DNA of 29,618 nt, taken from a virus. How positions within the stretch are numbered: the stretch's first letter is position 1; each line of letters begins with the position of its first letter. Both the position numbers and the translations under genes were made by a program. Shown here piece by piece: positions 1-25,264 of the stretch. The notes under the pieces were generated by a model, which saw only the letters and a program-made list of their open reading frames with translations, was not told the DNA's origin and did not search any database. The DNA lies in IMG/VR virus record IMGVR_UViG_3300044715_000099, positions 1-29,618 of that record. One strand, given 5' to 3'.

Positions 1-1224
1 AAGAAACTGATGGAGAGCTATAAAGATGGCGAGAAGAAATATTCAATCGACAAAACAGTTCGAGCTAACTTACTTATTCTTGCTGATGAAAACCCCGACG
101 AAATACCGCCGGAAGTTGCAGATGTTATCCAATGTGCGGACGACTTATGGGCGTCTAGTGTTGCAAAATTCAAGAGATTAGCGGAGTTAGCAGATGAAGA
201 AGATTCAAGAGTTAGAGGAGCATTTGTCTTTGCTGGTGGAAGTGCCACTGGACGTGCTTCAAGCTATGGAGCGCAAGTACACAACTTCACACGAAAGTGT
301 GCCAAAGATCCTGAAAGCGTTAGACACGCTATGGTTAGAAGTCACGCAATCGTGCCGACCTACGGACGACGCGTTACGGACGTCCTCAAAGGAATGTTAC
401 GTCCCTCACTCATACCCGAACGGGGAAAATCATTAGTCGTTGCTGACTGGGCGGCCATCGAGGCACGTGTCAACCCTTGGCTATCCAACTGCGAGGCAGG
501 TGAGCGTAAGCTAGAGTTGTTCCGCCAGGGCGAGGATGTCTACAAGGTCAACGCTTCGGCTACCTTCCACGTGCCTGTTGAGGCTGTCAATGGTGACCAA
601 CGTCAGATTGGTAAGGTTCAAGAGCTTGCTTGCGGGTTCGCAGGTGGTGTGGGCGCGTTTGCTGCGATGGGTCGAGCCTACGGCATCTTGTTGCCTGAAG
701 CCGAAGCCAAGCGCATGGTCAACGGCTGGCGCCTGGCTAACTCATGGGCTGTGCCGTATTGGCAGAACCTTGAGAGCGCCTATACACGGGCAATGCGTAA
801 CAAAGGCCATGAGTTCAGCGCAGGTCGTGTGACCTATTTGTTTGATGGTTTACACCTATGGTACGCACTTCCAAGTGGTCGTGTGCTATGCTATCCATTC
901 GCCAAATTAGACGCAGACGGAGTGACTTATGCCAAAGCTTCATGGAAGCCAGCAGCAGATGCCAAAGAGTGGCCAAGAGCTAGATTATGGAAAGGATTGG
1001 CTTGTGAGAACATCACTCAAGCCGTGGCTAACGATTTGTTACGCCACAGTCTGCGCCATCTCGATGATGTGGTCTTACACGTCCACGACGAGATAGTTAT
1101 TGAAACTAGCGACCCTGAATTTGCAACAAAAGAGATGGAGCGTGTCATGTGTTCAACGCCTGAGTGGGCTACGGGCATACCGATGAACATTGAAGTACAG
1201 ACCATGACACGGTACGGTAAGTAA
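1..1224 (+). CDS. Family A DNA polymerase, C-terminal part (5' end outside window)
   Basis: The reading frame is open from the first base, with three codons before the first ATG at position 10, so the gene very probably continues upstream and that ATG is internal. The visible part is the polymerase domain of a Pol I-like enzyme. Counting from the ATG at 10, GRASSYGAQVHNFTR at about residue 81 resembles the template-contacting segment before motif A. DWAAIEAR at 146-153 is motif A with a catalytic Asp, and RQIGKVQELACGFAGG at 198-213 is motif B (O-helix Arg/Lys). HVHDEIVIE near the C-terminus is motif C with the second catalytic Asp. A 3'-5' exonuclease domain would be expected upstream and cannot be assessed. 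The enzyme most likely replicates phage DNA together with the primase-helicase 54 bp downstream. Family assignment is secure; completeness is not. Confidence 0.93.
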   Translation, partial: KKLMESYKDGEKKYSIDKTVRANLLILADENPDEIPPEVADVIQCADDLWASSVAKFKRLAELADEEDSRVRGAFVFAGGSATGRASSYGAQVHNFTRKCAKDPESVRHAMVRSHAIVPTYGRRVTDVLKGMLRPSLIPERGKSLVVADWAAIEARVNPWLSNCEAGERKLELFRQGEDVYKVNASATFHVPVEAVNGDQRQIGKVQELACGFAGGVGAFAAMGRAYGILLPEAEAKRMVNGWRLANSWAVPYWQNLESAYTRAMRNKGHEFSAGRVTYLFDGLHLWYALPSGRVLCYPFAKLDADGVTYAKASWKPAADAKEWPRARLWKGLACENITQAVANDLLRHSLRHLDDVVLHVHDEIVIETSDPEFATKEMERVMCSTPEWATGIPMNIEVQTMTRYGK

Positions 1225-1278: not shown

Positions 1279-3570
1279 ATGAATTTCATAGAGTATATAA
1301 CAAAACTAGCACCAGAAGGTGAAACTGCTTTAGTTGTACGTCAAAAGCCTGTCCTAAAGGATGGTGAGCTACAGTTCCACGCTGATGGCGCTATCAAATG
1401 CACATGGCCTGCGTTCTTGCCAAGTACCAAGATTAAGAAGGGTGAGGCTTGGTATGTAAACACTGCCAGCTTTATTGTTGACCGCTTCCAAGATGGCAAA
1501 GTCAGCGCGTCTGCTGCCAACTGCGAGTACGTCTTGTTTATGATGTTAGACGACATCGGTAGCAAGTCCAAGACCCCACCGCTTGACCCTACATGGATTC
1601 TTGAAACGTCTGAGGGTAACTTCCAATGGGGTTACGCCTTCAGCGAGCAACCATCCAAGGGCGACTTCACTGCTGCCATCCGTGCCATCGCTGATGCTGG
1701 CTACACAGACCCAGGCGCTTGCAACGCAGTACGCAACGTGCGCCTGCCCGGCTCAGTCAACATGAAGCCTGGGCGCGGTAACTTTGAGGCTCGCTTGGTT
1801 GAGTTCCACCCAGAGCGTGAGTACACGCTGGCTGAGATCTGCACAGCTCTAGACGTTACACCTGCTGAGGCCGACACCACAGCCAACGCGCCGATTCGCC
1901 TAGCCGACACAGGCAAGGACTCAGTAGTGACATGGATGAACGACAACGGTTTGGTTCTGTCACCTGCCAATGGTGAGGGCTGGATGGGTGTGGTCTGTCC
2001 AAACAGCGCAGAGCATACTGATGGCAACCCAGAAGGGCGTTACAAGCCATTGGATCGTAGCTACTGCTGTCTACACTCGCACTGCGTGGACTTGGACTCT
2101 AACAAGTTCTTGTCATGGGTGGCTGAGAACGGTGGTCCCAAAGTGAGCGCTGGCTTGCGTGATGAGTTGTTGGCTGAAAAGATGAGCTTGACCCTATCCA
2201 AGCTAACCCCAACTGATATGTTCACAGACGATGCCACACAACGCATCGCTGAGATTGAACGCAAAGAACTTGGTCGCATCGAGAAGTCCGAGTGGTATGA
2301 GCGTTTTGCTTACATTCAAGATGATGAGTCCTACTTTGACTTGCGTGACCGCCGTGAGGTCAGTCGCCAGACCTTCAACGCTTTGTTCCGACACATAGAG
2401 TGTAAGTCCATCCACACTGGTCGCAAAGTCGAAGCGTCTGTTTGCTTTGACGAGAACAGACAAGCGATGGGTGCTAAGGCTTTGGTCGGTATCACTTACG
2501 CAGCAGGTGACGATATGCTTGTGTCTAGAGATGGTGACTTGTACGGCAACCGCTGGCGTGATGCTCGCCCTGAGTACGTCGCTGGTGATGTGACGCCTTG
2601 GCTTGACCATTGCGAAACGTTGATTCCAGAACCATCGGAGTTGAATCACCTGTTTGACATCATGGCGTTTAAGGTGCAAAACCCTAAAATCAAGATTAAC
2701 CACGCTGTCCTACACGCTGGTGACCAAGGCTCTGGTAAGGACACCATGTGGGCGCCGTTCATTTGGGCTGTCTGTGGTGAACACATGAAGAACCACGGCC
2801 TGCTAGACAACGACACCATGTCCTCTCAGTTCGGCTATGCCCTTGAGTCTGAAATCCTTATCCTCAACGAACTCAAAGAGCCGGACGCTCGTGAGCGTCG
2901 TGCCTTGGCTAACAAGTTAAAGCCCATCATCGCAGCTCCACCAGAGATGCTGACTGTCAATCGTAAGGGCTTGCATCCATACCAAATGGCTAATCGTGTG
3001 TTCGTTTTGGCGTTCTCTAACGATCCTGTGCCTATTTCGTTGGACTCACAAGACCGCCGTTGGTTCTGTGTCTGGTCACACGCTCCACGCATGGCACCTC
3101 AAGTGGCCGCTAAGATGTGGCAGTGGTATCGCAATGGTGGCTTCGCAGCAGTCGGTGCTTGGTTGCAGGCTCGTGACGTGAGCCACTTCAACCCAGGCGC
3201 AGCTCCTGCCTTGACCGAGTTCAAGCAGAACCTAGTCGAGCATGGTATGAGCATGGCTGAGTCTTACTTGGTTGAGATGATGCGTCACCGCACAGGTGAG
3301 TTTGCCAAGGGTGTGATTGGTTCGCCTTTCCACGCTATCTGTGATCGCTTGGCAGGCGCAGCACCGAGTGGTGTCAAAGTCCCACAGGCTGCTTTGCTAC
3401 ACGCTTTGAAAGAAGCAGGCTGGGTGGACTGTGGTCGCTTGAAGTCACGCGATTATGACAACAAAAAGCACATCTTCGCTGCACCTGAGCTGGCCAATAC
3501 GCTATCCAAGTCAGAGTTGAGAGCTGCCGTTGAGCAACCGCCCACACCTAAACTTGTGAGTGTGAAATAA
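1279..3570 (+). CDS. Primase-helicase: RepB-type primase fused to SF3-like helicase (DUF5906-type)
   Basis: This 763-residue protein is predicted to make primers and unwind DNA for phage replication. Residues about 80-165 (MMLDDIGSK, ETSEGNFQWGYAF, and VRNVRLPGSVNMKPG) match the RepB/NrS-1-like archaeo-eukaryotic primase layout. A putative zinc site follows: C240, H246, and a C263/C264/H266/H268/C269 cluster. The C-terminal half is an AAA+ SF3-like helicase: GDQGSGKDT at 481-489 is the Walker A loop, ESEILILNELKE at about 523-534 is Walker B-like, N581 in AFSNDPVP fits sensor 1, and DRRWF at about 592-596 fits the arginine finger. The start at 1279 follows AAGGGAAATAACAA, an acceptable ribosome site. 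It is the last gene of the plus-strand replication run. A separate single-domain helicase or primase was not seen, but genes outside the window are unknown. Confidence 0.88.
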   Translation: MNFIEYITKLAPEGETALVVRQKPVLKDGELQFHADGAIKCTWPAFLPSTKIKKGEAWYVNTASFIVDRFQDGKVSASAANCEYVLFMMLDDIGSKSKTPPLDPTWILETSEGNFQWGYAFSEQPSKGDFTAAIRAIADAGYTDPGACNAVRNVRLPGSVNMKPGRGNFEARLVEFHPEREYTLAEICTALDVTPAEADTTANAPIRLADTGKDSVVTWMNDNGLVLSPANGEGWMGVVCPNSAEHTDGNPEGRYKPLDRSYCCLHSHCVDLDSNKFLSWVAENGGPKVSAGLRDELLAEKMSLTLSKLTPTDMFTDDATQRIAEIERKELGRIEKSEWYERFAYIQDDESYFDLRDRREVSRQTFNALFRHIECKSIHTGRKVEASVCFDENRQAMGAKALVGITYAAGDDMLVSRDGDLYGNRWRDARPEYVAGDVTPWLDHCETLIPEPSELNHLFDIMAFKVQNPKIKINHAVLHAGDQGSGKDTMWAPFIWAVCGEHMKNHGLLDNDTMSSQFGYALESEILILNELKEPDARERRALANKLKPIIAAPPEMLTVNRKGLHPYQMANRVFVLAFSNDPVPISLDSQDRRWFCVWSHAPRMAPQVAAKMWQWYRNGGFAAVGAWLQARDVSHFNPGAAPALTEFKQNLVEHGMSMAESYLVEMMRHRTGEFAKGVIGSPFHAICDRLAGAAPSGVKVPQAALLHALKEAGWVDCGRLKSRDYDNKKHIFAAPELANTLSKSELRAAVEQPPTPKLVSVK

Positions 3571-4056: not shown

Positions 4057-4139
4057 AGTGACCAGCCGTAAACAAACATACCAGCCAATACAAAAGCCAG
4101 AGCGACCAGCAGTAAACCCTCAATGATTTTCTTAAGCAT
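4053..4139 (-). CDS. 28-residue single-span membrane microprotein
   Basis: The ATG at 4137-4139 overlaps the final codons and stop of the glutamine amidotransferase gene (8-bp overlap) and is preceded by AAGGGAG at about 6-bp spacing, a strong ribosome site. The product begins MLKKIIEG, continues with roughly 18 hydrophobic residues and ends VYGWSL. The two Lys at the N-terminus suggest an N-in orientation. The next microprotein starts on its stop codon. The good ribosome site and the two nested overlaps make a real gene likely. Function is unknown; small holin-like proteins and membrane-targeting partners are both possible. Confidence 0.62.
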   Translation of the reverse strand: MLKKIIEGLLLVALAFVLAGMFVYGWSL

Positions 4140-5103
4140 AATATGCTCCCTTGTAAGTTATCTTTTTAAGATTAAAGTTTTCTTTTGCATAATCAGGGTT
4201 AGTTAATGCCTTATCAAACTGCTCATAATCAATTTGATTTTGCATTAAATAGTCCGCTAAATCAGCAAAAGCATTGAAACCAAAATCAGCAATAAAATCT
4301 TCAATTAATCTTAAGCTGGTCTGGCTGGCTTCATAATGTCCGCAATATCCTAAATCATCTAATATCATCTCAACATCATCATATAAGCTGGGATAGTCAT
4401 AACCAGACTGATAACCAGAGCCATACATAGAGCCAGACAAGCTGGGGTATCGTATCGCTGGAGCTGGTTTTTCTTTTGCTTGCTTTTTAGCGGTCTTAAT
4501 GCTCTTAATAGGGGTCTGGCTGGTCGTATCGCTGGCAGTCCACGCATACTCATTGGAAAGCCAAAGACCAGCCCAATAGACCCCCGCTTTTTGATTAACC
4601 GTGGACATATTGCCAAAGTTGTCCATCAGCACAAACTTATTGCCAGACCCAATATGCGACCCGATTAAATGCCTAAATGCTGGAGTGAAAGCAAAAGCTG
4701 GATTAGTTGCAAGCATTGGGCGTAGATAGTCCCTTATGTAATGCCATGTATCGCTCTTGCTGGTATCACCAGCGTTGCCCGTTGCCAAAATGCCATTGTG
4801 CATCAGCCAGAGGTCTGTCCCATGCTCTTGCTGGTTCAATACTTCGTAGGGGTGGCAGTTTGTTAAATCAGTATCACCATGAGTTCTCATGCGAAGATGG
4901 AAAGCACAATTTTTACCTTGAATATGATTGCGGTAAAAATGCACAAAATCATCAGCATTTTTTGGGAGTATCTTTTCTACAATCAAGCGATTGTCCAAAG
5001 AATACATAACCCCCACACCATCAGAGTTATAAGAGTAAAAATCATTCAGCCAATCATCACTCAATGATGGTGAATTGTTTGTTTGAGTCACTAATAAACA
5101 CAT
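4132..5103 (-). CDS. Class II glutamine amidotransferase (Ntn-hydrolase type)
   Basis: The 323-residue product looks like a GATase II enzyme, which releases ammonia from glutamine for a partner ligase. The N-terminus is MC, so Cys2 becomes the catalytic N-terminal nucleophile after Met removal. Other family marks are NSDGVGVMY (27-35), RMRTHG (71-76), NCHPYEV (82-88) and LMHNG (100-104; Asn/Gly of the oxyanion hole). The last third (after about residue 205) is Ser/Tyr/Asp-rich and unassigned. The start has a good ribosome site (AAAAAGGAAAA before ATG). It is 43 bp downstream of the amidoligase-like gene on the same strand, a pairing that suggests ammonia or glutamine-dependent amide chemistry. 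The microprotein gene overlaps its 3' end. The catalytic-domain call is strong; the substrate is unknown. Confidence 0.85.
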   Translation of the reverse strand: MCLLVTQTNNSPSLSDDWLNDFYSYNSDGVGVMYSLDNRLIVEKILPKNADDFVHFYRNHIQGKNCAFHLRMRTHGDTDLTNCHPYEVLNQQEHGTDLWLMHNGILATGNAGDTSKSDTWHYIRDYLRPMLATNPAFAFTPAFRHLIGSHIGSGNKFVLMDNFGNMSTVNQKAGVYWAGLWLSNEYAWTASDTTSQTPIKSIKTAKKQAKEKPAPAIRYPSLSGSMYGSGYQSGYDYPSLYDDVEMILDDLGYCGHYEASQTSLRLIEDFIADFGFNAFADLADYLMQNQIDYEQFDKALTNPDYAKENFNLKKITYKGAYYA

Positions 5104-5146
5104 AATTATTTTCCTTTTTGTTAATTTTAAAATGTCGCTCTAGGTT

Positions 5147-6550
5147 TTATATGGCTTCTAGGGCTGTTTTTTCTACTGATCCAGCGGGTTTGGCTGGCTT
5201 GCTCTTTTCTGGCAAGTTGAAACCCTTTTCTTTTAAATAGGTACGCAAAAATCTTGTATCGCATCTATTTTCAGCACGACAAATAAACTTTAAAAACTCG
5301 CTTGTCGTGAGCTGGGTCTGGCTGGCATCTTTGCAAAAGTGCCATGTCGCAAAAGTAAACTCCAGACAAGCCATAATCGTTTGATATTTCAAAGTACCTT
5401 TAAACAATCTAAACTCAATGGTCTTATCGTTTTTAAAGTTGAGGGCTTCATAGCGGTCACTATTCAAGTTGCGGAGCTGGTATTTTTTCTGGAGCTTATT
5501 GTTATCCTCAGCCCTTTTGCCAGCTTGCATAGCATCTTTTAACCAATGCTTGTCCGCTTTCTTATCGTGAATTTTTGAATAGCTAGAGCTATCCCGTCTG
5601 GCCAGAGCATAGACCAGCTTTTGATTGTCGTTATCGTTAATGAATAAGACCATCTTGCAAGCGTGGAGCGTGGACATATCAGCTTTACAAATATGAATAT
5701 GCAAGCCACAAGTGCTGGTATTGTGGCTAGATGCACCATTGAATTTTTCTTTGAAAAATTGCAATTGCTCTTTGTGGACATCAAGACCTGTATAGGCAGT
5801 CACCATCTCAAAGCCGTTATCCAGAGAGCCATCTTGTTCGCATAGGGCATAGGTATAGCGGTCATTTTCAGCATCACGATAACTGCCAACATTTTCCAAT
5901 AGCACTCCAGCTCTACCATCTAATGAGTGACTGCTGGCAATTTCCATCTCAAGCTCCAGACCTAGCAAAACCGCTGGAGTGCGATTGTCATACTTACTAG
6001 GAATGTGCCCTAGTTGTTCGGAGCTGGAGTGATACTCACCTATATTTTCAAAGCCACCATTTTCGCTTTCATAATCATCATCAACATAGCAGTCGTGATA
6101 ATCAGACCAATGGTAATTATTCTCTTTGCAACACTCGCAAACAGACCTATCACCATCATTGACCGAGTAAGTATCGTTATCGTGGACAATAGTCCCACAA
6201 TCATCACATGAGTAATAACACCCCCCAAATTTATCGTGCAAGACATCACACGCATTGTTCATGATGCGACCATGCTGGGGTCTGGCTTCATTGACCAGCT
6301 CCAGAGCATAGTCCACATCATCATTTTGGACTGCAATAGCGAATGATTTAGCGAATAACTTGCGATTATGTTTGATTGTCTGGATATTGCTTACATGGGC
6401 ATCTCTATACCAGCGATATGGCATTGTTAGATTGCTTTTAATTGCATCTCTTACCCAATACCTTGCATTGTTTAAACGGCTGGCATCATCAGCATAATTG
6501 CCAGATGTCATGTTGAGTTGCCATCTTGAAACTAGATTTTGACTGCTCAT
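5147..6550 (-). CDS. Amidoligase-like enzyme with internal zinc ribbon
   Basis: The 467-residue product carries the motif series of the putative amidoligase family (COOH-NH2 ligases of the gamma-glutamylcysteine synthetase fold). These are LGLELEMEI (196-204, metal-binding Glu), EQDGSLDNGFEMVT (238-251), CGLHIHI (281-287) and, near the C-terminus, LNFKNDKTIEFRLFKGTL (370-387). Before the catalytic part is a probable zinc ribbon with C111, C115, C118, C138, C140 and C141, followed by an acidic His/Tyr/Asp-rich stretch. The N-terminal 100 residues are unassigned and may bind a substrate. GAGGT precedes the ATG at suitable distance. It leads the minus-strand cassette, with the glutamine amidotransferase next. 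Such enzymes join amino or carboxyl groups on peptides or proteins using ATP; the target here is unknown. The fold call is fairly sure from the four ordered motifs. Confidence 0.8.
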   Translation of the reverse strand: MSSQNLVSRWQLNMTSGNYADDASRLNNARYWVRDAIKSNLTMPYRWYRDAHVSNIQTIKHNRKLFAKSFAIAVQNDDVDYALELVNEARPQHGRIMNNACDVLHDKFGGCYYSCDDCGTIVHDNDTYSVNDGDRSVCECCKENNYHWSDYHDCYVDDDYESENGGFENIGEYHSSSEQLGHIPSKYDNRTPAVLLGLELEMEIASSHSLDGRAGVLLENVGSYRDAENDRYTYALCEQDGSLDNGFEMVTAYTGLDVHKEQLQFFKEKFNGASSHNTSTCGLHIHICKADMSTLHACKMVLFINDNDNQKLVYALARRDSSSYSKIHDKKADKHWLKDAMQAGKRAEDNNKLQKKYQLRNLNSDRYEALNFKNDKTIEFRLFKGTLKYQTIMACLEFTFATWHFCKDASQTQLTTSEFLKFICRAENRCDTRFLRTYLKEKGFNLPEKSKPAKPAGSVEKTALEAI

Positions 6551-6879
6551 ACTTACCTCACTTTACTTTAGGTTATTAAGAGAGCTGGATTGCTCTCACG
6601 CATGAGTGTAATACATTCTTTTGCAGTTGTGCTGATTTTGTGGACATTGTGGACAATGTGTGGACAAGTTTGTGGACAATGCAAAATGACCATGTAAGCC
6701 ACGACCAGACTGATTGTGGACAATGTGGACAATGATTATTGGATATATAGTGGATTTGTAATTCTATGTTAGTGAGTGCTAACAATGTTATAAGCCAGCG
6801 ATTTAAAACTGCTGTCCACATTATCCACATTGTCCACACTTTGCTCGCTGTCCGTTGCTCGCTGGCTAAAAGTTTTTCA

Positions 6880-6933
6880 GTTTGTGGACAATGTGGACAA
6901 TCTAAAATCTAATTGTCCACATTGTCCACAAAC
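6880..6933. repeat. Perfect 22-bp inverted repeat made of paired 9-mers
   Basis: Arms 6880-6901 and 6912-6933 are exact reverse complements, separated by the 10-base spacer CTAAAATCTA. Each arm contains two contiguous TGTGGACAA/TTGTCCACA units plus the flanking GTT/AAC. In single-stranded DNA or RNA it would fold into a long stable hairpin; in duplex DNA it presents four DnaA-like sites with dyad symmetry. Confidence 0.85.
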
Positions 6934-6953
6934 ACTCCAGACCGCTGGCTTGT

Positions 6954-7013
6954 TTGTCATTATGACAATCAATGTTTGTTAAAAAATAACAAACACCAAA
7001 AGATTAACAAACA
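6954..7013. repeat. Palindrome plus inverted and direct TAACAAACA repeats in AT-rich DNA
   Basis: TTGTCAT-T-ATGACAA at 6954-6968 is a perfect 15-bp palindrome. TGTTTGTTA (6973-6981) and TAACAAACA (6987-6995) form a hairpin with loop AAAAA. A third copy, TAACAAACA, lies at 7005-7013 in direct orientation. The stretch lies between two groups of DnaA-like sites and is AT-rich, as expected of a DNA-unwinding element. Confidence 0.6.
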
Positions 7014-7064
7014 TAATCAGCGAATAATAATTGATTGTCCACATTATCCACATTGTCCACAAAG

Positions 7065-7186
7065 CCAGATAATCACCAGATAATGTCTTAATATCACTTT
7101 GCTCACATACTACATAATGATTATCTAATAATGATTATATGTGGACATAATCACTCATTATCTAACGATTATCTAGCTATTATCTC
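7065..7186. repeat. ATTATCT / AGATAAT repeats at 11-bp spacing
   Basis: CCAGATAAT occurs at 7065-7073 and 7076-7084, exactly 11 bp apart. The reverse orientation ATTATCT occurs at 7120-7126, 7157-7163, 7168-7174 and 7179-7185, the last three again at exact 11-bp steps. Spacing close to one helical turn places the units on one face of the DNA, which is typical of iterons bound by an initiator or of cooperative operators. Confidence 0.6.
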
Positions 7187-7295
7187 TCAGCCATTATGTC
7201 CGATTATAAAAGTTAGTAGCCACTAACCAAAAAGGCAATTTTCTGAAAGACCGCGCCCAGGGGCCCAGGGCCATGGGTCAATTTGGCTAGGTGCT

Positions 7296-7343: not shown

Positions 7344-7787
7344 ATGTTTCACTCCATACCCTATGAACCTCGCAAGCTCGAAGCCACAGAGGGACGGCTC
7401 GAAGCTATATACGCCGCAGCCAAGATTGGCTTGAAGGGCGACGCCCTTGCTTTAGCTGCAGGGATGTTACCCACTGAATACAGACAACTCACTCAGTTTG
7501 ATCCTGTCGCTGAAATGGCAGAACTCAAAGGCCGCGCTGATGGCGAGCGTGAGATGTCACAGGTTCTGCACGAAGCTGCACGCAACGGCGATGCTAAAGC
7601 AGCGCTTGAAATCCTAAAGCACCAGCACGGCTGGGTAGCCAAACAGCAGATTAATGTGGAAGTGGATCAGCGCATCTCCATCACGCAGGCATTAGAAGAT
7701 GCGCAAAAGCGAGTGATAGAAGCCATCGACATCACACCTAAAGAACATCTAGAGTTCCACGTGGAACAACAACAAAAGGCTGCCTAA
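7344..7787 (+). CDS. terS: Terminase small subunit
   Basis: The 147-residue product is the first gene of the late block and lies directly before the large terminase, the usual place for the DNA-recognition subunit. Residues about 20-55 (IYAAAKIGLKGDALALAAGMLPTEYRQL) read as a helix-turn-helix. The middle is Ala/Glu-rich helical sequence (ALEILKHQHGW is a typical segment of this family), and the tail is Gln/Lys-rich. The ATG at 7344 is the first start after an in-frame stop at 7332-7334. No ribosome site precedes it, so initiation on a very short leader is possible. Its stop codon abuts the GTG start of the next gene. The assignment rests on helix-turn-helix appearance plus position. Confidence 0.8.
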   Translation: MFHSIPYEPRKLEATEGRLEAIYAAAKIGLKGDALALAAGMLPTEYRQLTQFDPVAEMAELKGRADGEREMSQVLHEAARNGDAKAALEILKHQHGWVAKQQINVEVDQRISITQALEDAQKRVIEAIDITPKEHLEFHVEQQQKAA

Positions 7788-24042: not shown

Positions 24043-24377
24043 CCGTAACTGTACGGGTTTTAATCCCAGCGAAAATCGCTGAAAATTCACAAACAACTCA
24101 ATACACCGCAAATGGCGTAACAACCATTATCGACAAGTTCACTGCGACCAATTACGGCGCAGCAGCTGCAACCATCAGCGTGAACTTGGTCACAGCCGCA
24201 GGATCAGCAGGCGACGCTAACTTAATCGTTAAGACCAAAACGCTACAGCCTACAGAAACTTACACGTTTCCAGAGCTAGTAGGCGCAGCGTTGGTGGCAG
24301 GCGGGTTCATCTCAACGATTGCTGGTACAGCCACATCCATCAACATTCGTGCTAACGGACGTGAGATTACAAGCTAA
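24039..24377 (+). CDS. Small beta-sandwich structural protein
   Basis: This 112-residue frame starts with ATGA overlapping the previous stop and ends in a TAATG overlap. It reads as alternating strands (TTIIDKFTATNYGAAAATIS, LQPTETYTFPELVGAALVAG, SINIRANGREITS). The pattern resembles small phage proteins annotated as capsid or tail decoration, but I recognise no defined family. It is coupled translationally to both neighbours. Confidence 0.6.
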   Translation: MTVTVRVLIPAKIAENSQTTQYTANGVTTIIDKFTATNYGAAAATISVNLVTAAGSAGDANLIVKTKTLQPTETYTFPELVGAALVAGGFISTIAGTATSINIRANGREITS

Positions 24378-25264
24378 TGCAAATTAAAGTAACCTACGGC
24401 AAAGGGTTTGAACCCAAGCAACAACCTTTAGCAACGTTTGCTAATATGGGGGTTGCAACGCTTGAAGTCACAAAAGAAAAGATTGTTAAGCTTCAAGACG
24501 AACTGCTCAAAATGAAGCAAGCAGACATTGTGACAGAGCACACATTTGCACCAAGCGTTTACGAACGTAAAATCACTATACCCCCGTGGACGGTGCTAAC
24601 AGGTGCAGCACACAAGACTGCGTATAAGATTAGGCTTGAAAAAGGTACTATTGCTGTAAACGTGGGGACAGAAGTCAAAGTGTTGACAGCACCGCTAGAA
24701 TTTAACGCAAGCGCAGGTGAGCAACGCGTAGGACGCGTATTTGACGAAGAAGTTGTTTGGGTGGATGTTTACGAAAATTTAGACGATTGTACGGATATTC
24801 CTACACTAGAAGATCGTTTATACGTTGTACCAGAGTACGGGCTAGGCGACAGCCGTACGGCGGTGCAACAAGCAAAGTTAGACTACAAACTGTTTTTAAA
24901 TCAAATTAACATGACGTATGAGCAAGTACAAGCAATCGCCGAAAACGAATCGGATTTAATACCTATGCCTGACGGTTATTTTGTTCAGCTACAAGATTCA
25001 CCTATACATGGCCAAGGGTTGTTTGCAACAAAACCTTTTAAAATTGGCGAAATTGTATGCCCTGGTCGTTTAAATGGTAAAAGAACACCTGGCGGTAGGT
25101 TTATAAATCATTCATTTAATGCTAACATTGAGCCATTAAAAGATGGTGATGATATTTATTCAGTTGCAATTAAAAATATTGACGTCGGCGATGAACTGTT
25201 GTTAGATTATAGGGCCTCTATGCGAGTAAACTTTGGCCTAATGTTACAAGGAGAATTAACATGA
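24377..25264 (+). CDS. Cupin-like plus SET-domain protein (predicted lysine methyltransferase)
   Basis: The 295-residue product has two parts. Residues about 55-135 look like a cupin-type beta-barrel (ERKITIPPWTVLTGAAHKTA, KIRLEKGTIAVNVG). Residues about 200-285 carry the SET motifs: SPIHGQGLFAT (208-218), RFINHSFNANIE (241-252) and DELLLDYRA (272-280). These correspond to the AdoMet-binding NHS-type motif and the catalytic-site Tyr. SET enzymes methylate protein lysines. The domain is short; a pre-SET zinc cluster is absent and the iSET region is minimal. It sits in the structural block, starting in a TAATG overlap and ending in an ATGA overlap with an ejection-type gene, so a virion protein is the natural candidate substrate. 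Activity and target are inferred. Confidence 0.78.
   Translation: MQIKVTYGKGFEPKQQPLATFANMGVATLEVTKEKIVKLQDELLKMKQADIVTEHTFAPSVYERKITIPPWTVLTGAAHKTAYKIRLEKGTIAVNVGTEVKVLTAPLEFNASAGEQRVGRVFDEEVVWVDVYENLDDCTDIPTLEDRLYVVPEYGLGDSRTAVQQAKLDYKLFLNQINMTYEQVQAIAENESDLIPMPDGYFVQLQDSPIHGQGLFATKPFKIGEIVCPGRLNGKRTPGGRFINHSFNANIEPLKDGDDIYSVAIKNIDVGDELLLDYRASMRVNFGLMLQGELT

Follow-up and report, generated by a model that had tools for sequence, protein, structure and literature searches.

A variable array of short repeats as the probable replication origin of a phage group, read by the phages' own primase-helicase

Results and discussion

The main finding of this analysis is that a dense array of short repeats at positions 6639-7148 of the window, by which we mean the whole stretch of 29,618 bases of a virus record (probably a fragment), is most likely the replication origin of the phage, made of iterons bound by the phage's own primase-helicase. 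Judging from sequence comparisons, we put the probability of this reading at roughly 0.87. The repeats found at this locus in related phages change in step with two residues of the primase-helicase, and therefore an origin read by the phage initiator is the most likely function of the array. An earlier note on this DNA had proposed an origin recruiting host DnaA, a sink titrating DnaA or an operator for a phage initiator not yet known. The last of these is now strongly supported, and the covariation between residues and bases names the primase-helicase as the initiator; the two DnaA readings are not supported as the reason for the array, because the units of the relatives are not DnaA boxes and the unit follows the residues of the phage primase.

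Genes of the window

The window encodes a PolA polymerase, a RepB-primase/DUF5906 protein, a terminase (TerL), a P22-like portal and a major head protein, and no near-identical counterpart of it was found among the phage records searched. The phage does have its own polymerase and primase-helicase, as had been claimed. A family A DNA polymerase gene lies at 10..1224 (+) and, in the same replication module, the gene of the primase-helicase, our proposed initiator, lies at 1279..3570 (+) and combines a RepB-type primase (PF16793) with a DUF5906 helicase-like domain. Between the primase gene and the array there is a variable cassette on the minus strand (4132..6550), which here holds two genes, one for an Amidoligase_2 protein and a neighbour that by eye, with no Pfam hit, resembles a class II glutamine amidotransferase; in other relatives this position is taken by small genes of unrelated kinds. 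The terS-position gene (7344..7787, +) is directly to the right of the array and its sequence does not track the repeat type. Among the late genes of the phage we also observed a SET-domain protein at 24377-25264 (PF00856, E 2.6e-9).

The repeat array in the window

The exact pattern TTRTCCACA was found at 14 sites, all of them within 6648-7061, against a mean of 0.53 and a maximum of 3 per whole window in dinucleotide shuffles. DnaA-box-type 9-mers are therefore well above chance expectation, though 12 of the 14 are the TTG variant TTGTCCACA and 2 are the exact classical consensus TTATCCACA. Three extra TGTCCACA cores with a different first base start at 6639, 6813 and 7140, which brings the array to the 17 sites, spanning 6639-7148, that the earlier note had counted. 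Its description of zero-spaced head-to-tail groups in both orientations also agrees with the site positions on the two strands (6715/6724, 6821/6830, 6883/6892, 6913/6922 and 7035/7044/7053), and both triplets, at 6812-6838 and 7035-7061, indeed have TTATCCACA as the middle unit. The array occupies the gap between the minus-strand amidoligase gene (start 6550) and the plus-strand terS-position gene (start 7344), which was correctly called the only large divergent gap.

From left to right, the first cluster (6639..6679, minus strand) consists of ATGTCCACA at 6639-6647 and TTGTCCACA at 6648-6656, 6659-6667 and 6671-6679. The second (6715..6732, minus strand) is a contiguous pair that forms the left border of an AT-rich spacer, a layout seen again in relatives whose repeats are of other classes. 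This spacer (6733..6811; 79 bp, about 70% AT) separates the minus pair from a plus triplet and is our candidate melting site. The triplet, cluster 3 (6812..6838, plus strand), is contiguous and reads CTGTCCACA, TTATCCACA, TTGTCCACA. In cluster 4 (6883..6930) a minus pair at 6883-6900 faces a plus pair at 6913-6930, and this inverted block is common to many relatives. A second AT-rich stretch, beginning with TTGTTAAAAAATAACAAAC, extends over 6931..7034 and is followed by cluster 5 (7035..7061, plus strand), the other contiguous triplet, and by a lone outlying minus-strand site at 7140..7148 (ATGTCCACA). Among 400-bp segments of the record, the one lowest in GC has its centre at 7048. The region 7062-7200, which separates the last iterons from terS, is AT-rich and contains repeated ATTATCT/GATTAT motifs.

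Regarding GC skew, its minimum in the window is at 7387. However, the extremes of near-complete relatives either bracket the leftward cassette or lie far from the array; the skew thus appears to track the coding strand, and we set it aside as evidence for an origin.

The same locus in related phages

Relatives were fetched from IMG/VR via their TerL. TTRTCCACA is absent from the 21.5 kb of the two nearest ones, L007 (TerL 96% identical) and L008 (94%), which instead carry, upstream of terS, an array of ATTGTCAA/TGACAATT with a period of 8 and an array of ATGACCTAC with a period of 9, respectively. A k-mer scan together with a tandem search found an array in nearly all relatives, with about 30 repeat types. 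The unit is TTTAGGCCA in L014, and further units at this locus are ATTGTCCAC, ATGACCCAA, ATGACTCAC, ATGACCCAC, ATGACCTAG, ATTGCCTAG, ATGGCCTAA, ACTGCCGAA and ATAGCCAAC. Nearly all of them fit a common frame: A, T/C, T/G/A, G/A, C/T, C/T, any base, A, any base. The search of related phages at the same locus, which the earlier note had recommended, shows that close relatives keep an array, built from repeats that are not DnaA boxes.

The sites are confined to the locus. With a strict pattern, 14 of 14 sites in the window and 12/12, 12/12, 12/12 and 11/12 in four near-complete relatives (47/48) lie there; L007 and L008 were scanned with looser patterns, which gave more matches outside the cluster. 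Unit-specific scans also revealed a layout that recurs across units: a minus pair, an AT-rich spacer, a plus pair or triplet, an inverted minus/plus block and plus pairs toward terS. In 63 of the 89 loci with at least 6 sites, the window included, minus and plus sites are separated by 60-140 bp (median 98 bp), and in 62 of these 63 the spacer has a higher AT content than the rest. An AT-rich region with iteron sets on either side, as in the origins of the SaPI/PICI/Cch2 type, is thus found at 63/89 loci, and the frequency of the layout varies with the class, from 24/25 for the repeat type of the window to 3/8 for ATGACTCACA. The element CGATTTAAAA was considered as a conserved part of the spacer and dropped, being present in 16 of 111 loci only.

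The distance from the primase gene to terS is 2-7 kb (3.8 kb in the window), with the variable cassette in between. A distant relative, MW202483.1, whose primase is 56% identical, has another wing and another repeat and is outside the residue-base rule described below. In some G+C-rich relatives a long CCCTG microsatellite lies directly upstream of terS (L013, 9400-9474; L248, L261 and L268), and in automatic calls it masks the TAGGC-type iterons that are predicted from the wing. L043 and L100 have in the array region a repeated CTAAGTTAG-like sequence, apparently separate from the iterons.

These comparisons bear directly on the idea that the array is a set of host DnaA boxes, there to recruit DnaA for the start of replication or to titrate it against the host. 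The resemblance is real at the level of the letters, as described above, and TTGTCCACA is the commonest single repeat type among the fetched loci (31), though one search selected for TTGTCCACA. A conserved host binder, however, should go with a conserved unit, and L007, L008 and most relatives carry other units at this locus. Furthermore, TTATCCACA, which makes the better DnaA box, is the rarer one in the 31 loci of TTGTCCACA type, with 29 sites against 234, and occurs in 17 of the 31. A DnaA domain-IV-like protein encoded by the phage itself was considered as the binder and discarded: it scores above the cut-off in eight relatives, all of them with other repeat types, and a search of the window and of TTGTCCACA-type records gave none. 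This small protein (PF08299 above the cut-off) is encoded in L192-L197 and at 31477-31671 of MW202483.1, in the latter within the leftward cassette. Given that the unit varies among relatives and, as shown below, follows the phage primase, we reject DnaA recruitment or titration as the main reason for the array and regard it as quite unlikely. The TTGTCCACA-type arrays resemble DnaA boxes because one of the states allowed by the frame happens to match them, TTATCCACA being a TTGTCCACA-type unit with A replacing G at base 4; the most likely explanation of the match is a chance outcome of the current iteron type of the phage. DnaA might additionally bind the array of the window, but nothing we found points to it as the array's reason.

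Repeat letters follow two residues of the primase-helicase

When the primase-helicase alignment was sorted by repeat type, a short stretch close to the C-terminal end (in the window, GRLKSRDYDNKKH) was seen to vary with the repeat. Close relatives of unlike repeat type are also unlike in this stretch: KSREFDT goes with TCCACA in L111/L112 and ASADFKS with TCAAAT in L113/L117/L159, and likewise in L115/L156 versus L034, whereas in L084/L093 versus L064/L068 it is KSREF with TCCACA and ASGDF with CCCAAA.

We then scanned about 600 variable columns for changes on the same tree branches as changes in the repeat letters. The tree was built from primase residues 1-675 only, the training repeats were registered partly by hand, and the p-values, which are hypergeometric on tree branches, are best taken as ranks. 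In the first scan, all 12 of 12 changes of base 7 and residue 722 fell on the same branches (p=1e-15), and so did 11 of 14 changes of base 9 and residue 724 (p=4e-11), each pair being the best of all columns. Both residues came first again with fully automatic repeat calls (4e-8 and 5e-7), under the initial automatic register and the corrected one alike. In a larger scan of 131 distinct proteins, p was about 1e-11 for residue 722 with base 7 and about 5e-13 for residue 724 with base 9, and no column outside the C-terminal domain went beyond 6e-4 and 2e-3, respectively, for these bases. The pattern can be read almost as a table: Lys at 722 goes with C7 in 47/47 cases and His with A7 in 10/10; Arg at 724 goes with C9 in 41/41, residues other than Arg with C9 in 0/46, and Val with G9 in 6/6. 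For bases 3-5, in the 5' half of the iteron, the co-change scan gave no clear partner residue, and L054 and L037 have an identical wing, yet their repeats are ATGACCTAG and ATTGCCTAG.

The rules of the first set were applied, with automatic repeat calls, to 69 new loci from two scans with other primases as queries; 7 had no usable call and 62 could be scored. Base 7 was predicted correctly in 46/46 cases and base 9 in 57/59, although the new loci are from the same group and their lineages are thus not independent throughout. Arg went with C9 in 37/37 new loci and residues other than Arg never did (25/25), and 17 of the 24 wing sequences among these loci had not been seen before. The two misses at base 9 were L202, where Ser goes with G9, and L219, where Val goes with T9. 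L114 and L357, both with Arg, have TTGCTTACA-type repeats with, by eye, C at base 9. The L357 contig, with a primase 75% identical, is binned with an uncultured lake actinobacterium MAG, which may be a hint about the host or a binning error.

The position of the array directly upstream of terS would also suit a packaging site (pac/cos) recognised by TerS. Nevertheless, the TerS-position proteins of the window and of L007 begin almost identically although the two carry different repeats, and no TerS column tracks the repeat letters (best p about 2e-3). With automatic calls, TerS and TerL columns gave no comparable co-change (p not beyond about 1e-4), and both proteins were dropped as candidate binders; a packaging site is hardly credible.

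Another reading takes the units as single-stranded start sites of the primase, read by the primase plus helix-bundle domain, like TTTGGTTA in NrS-1. The helicase domain is related to that of the NrS-1 primase-polymerase (6k9c/6k9e; E 1.8e-10), and the repeat types TTTGGGTCAT and TGTGGACAAT are similar to the NrSPol sites TTTGGTTA and GTG(G) (PMC8718748). The covariation, however, has its maximum at the two C-terminal residues and not in the primase or helix-bundle region (6e-4 and 2e-3 at best for columns beyond the C-terminal domain), and the sites come in fixed pairs and in both orientations, which fits double-strand binding. We therefore hold this reading to be very improbable.

Predicted domain and proposed mechanism

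The proposed iteron-binding domain is a C-terminal winged-helix-like domain of the primase-helicase (residues 640-763; 3196..3567, plus strand), suggested by the AlphaFold prediction and by covariation. The model of the C-terminal 124 residues has helices followed by a beta hairpin (716-721 and 730-734) with a loop at 722-729; pLDDT is about 90 over helices and hairpin, and the full-length model agrees. The wing loop, K722-S-R-D-Y-D-N-K-K730 (3442..3468, plus strand), contains both residue 722, which tracks base 7, and residue 724, which tracks base 9. A Pfam scan of the domain gave no significant match, and Foldseek returned mostly winged-helix proteins (MarR, PadR, replication terminator) with weak scores, E 0.05 or worse. 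Protein-DNA contacts in which Arg or Lys reaches the G that pairs with a C are of a standard type.

We propose that the iteron is a unit of 9-10 bp, canonically ATTGTCCACA, which the C-terminal domain of the primase-helicase would bind as double-stranded DNA. The wing loop would read its 3' half, residue 722 setting base 7 (Lys with C) and residue 724 setting base 9 (Arg with C, presumably via the G on the opposite strand). Initiators could then load on the iteron pairs and triplets that face outward from the AT-rich spacer at 6733-6811, melt it and assemble the helicase ring; priming and unwinding would begin there, with a later hand-over to the phage PolA-type polymerase. The conserved locus, its partly conserved layout, the variable unit, the residue-base covariation, the out-of-sample prediction and the predicted fold are computed results, from which we infer the physical binding, the melting and the origin activity of the array.

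The same domain might instead bind the array as an operator, for the leftward cassette or terS, or for genome organisation, and not for replication. The array does sit between divergent transcription units, and covariation tells the identity of the binder and not the purpose of binding. We consider this unlikely, since the proposed binder is a primase-helicase encoded beside a DNA polymerase, the layout with an AT-rich region between two sets of iterons is that of PICI origins (PMC6092414), and the leftward cassette is swapped between relatives while the array stays.

Comparison with known systems

The origin reading has clear precedents. The Rep protein of SaPIs is a self-loading helicase, sometimes fused to a primase, and its C-terminal domain recognises short iterons (PMC7581432), and PICI origins have an AT-rich region flanked by two iteron sets (PMC6092414). 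In the phage studied here, PF16793 and PF19263 are likewise in one protein, primase plus replication helicase, and the C-terminal domain would specify the iteron, as suggested by covariation and out-of-sample prediction. The likeness to SaPI and PICI is one of domain role and origin layout. Unlike these satellites, our phage encodes a TerL, a P22-like portal and a major head protein of its own and is thus no satellite; moreover, SaPI origins lie directly downstream of rep, whereas the array here is kilobases away from the primase gene, behind the variable cassette, and there are many more repeat types.

In SCCmec, the isolated C-terminal domain of the initiator helicase Cch2 binds the direct repeats of the putative origin (PMC7581432). 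That system has only three short iterons and a separate primase, and the parallel with the domain described here is one of role. The P4 alpha protein has a different type of primase from that of our phage. Like the initiator proposed here, alpha is a primase-helicase with its own cognate ori (PMC6092414), again a parallel of role.

NrS-1 likewise joins, in one protein, a primase and an AAA+ helicase domain related to that of our phage (6k9c/6k9e). NrSPol recognises the specific 8-mer TTTGGTTA and GTG(G) (PMC8718748), and the 8-mer is read on a single-stranded template via the helix bundle domain (PMC8775771), whereas our covariation points to the C-terminal wing. In the PLE satellites of Vibrio cholerae, RepA/ori pairs show covariation of initiator and origin, with an origin-directed nuclease as the likely driver (PMC8263062). 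There, however, two replicon types with iterons of about 30 bp are involved, against about 30 types of 9-10 bp units here, and the residue-by-base pattern that we describe is in a different initiator.

The mode of action is thus of a known kind, and two features stand out as unusual, the number of repeat types that close relatives carry and the readable residue-to-base pattern. No description of the same mode of action in this phage group was found in the literature searched, and a text on a related phage, DSL-LC05, uses none of the terms origin of replication, repeat and iteron (PMC10611076).

Conclusions

A hijack of host DnaA is a tempting and probably wrong reading of this array, and it is replaced here by one that is sharply testable. 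As a caution, runs of TTGTCCACA in phage genomes are not necessarily DnaA boxes. More tentatively, these environmental phages may have an evolving system of origin specificity, in which about 10-20 iterons per genome and two or three wing residues change together, so that near-identical phages would have mutually incompatible origins; this is possible, although we would not bet on it. Escape from competitors, satellites or defences that target the origin may be the driver, by analogy with the PLE/Odn conflict. If true, such a system would give a readable protein-DNA code. Origin recognition in these uncultured phages is partly predictable from two residues of one protein, and the about 30 iteron types, each paired with its initiator, form a natural series that would be useful for understanding how DNA is read by winged-helix domains and how a large number of dispersed sites can change in concert with a single protein.
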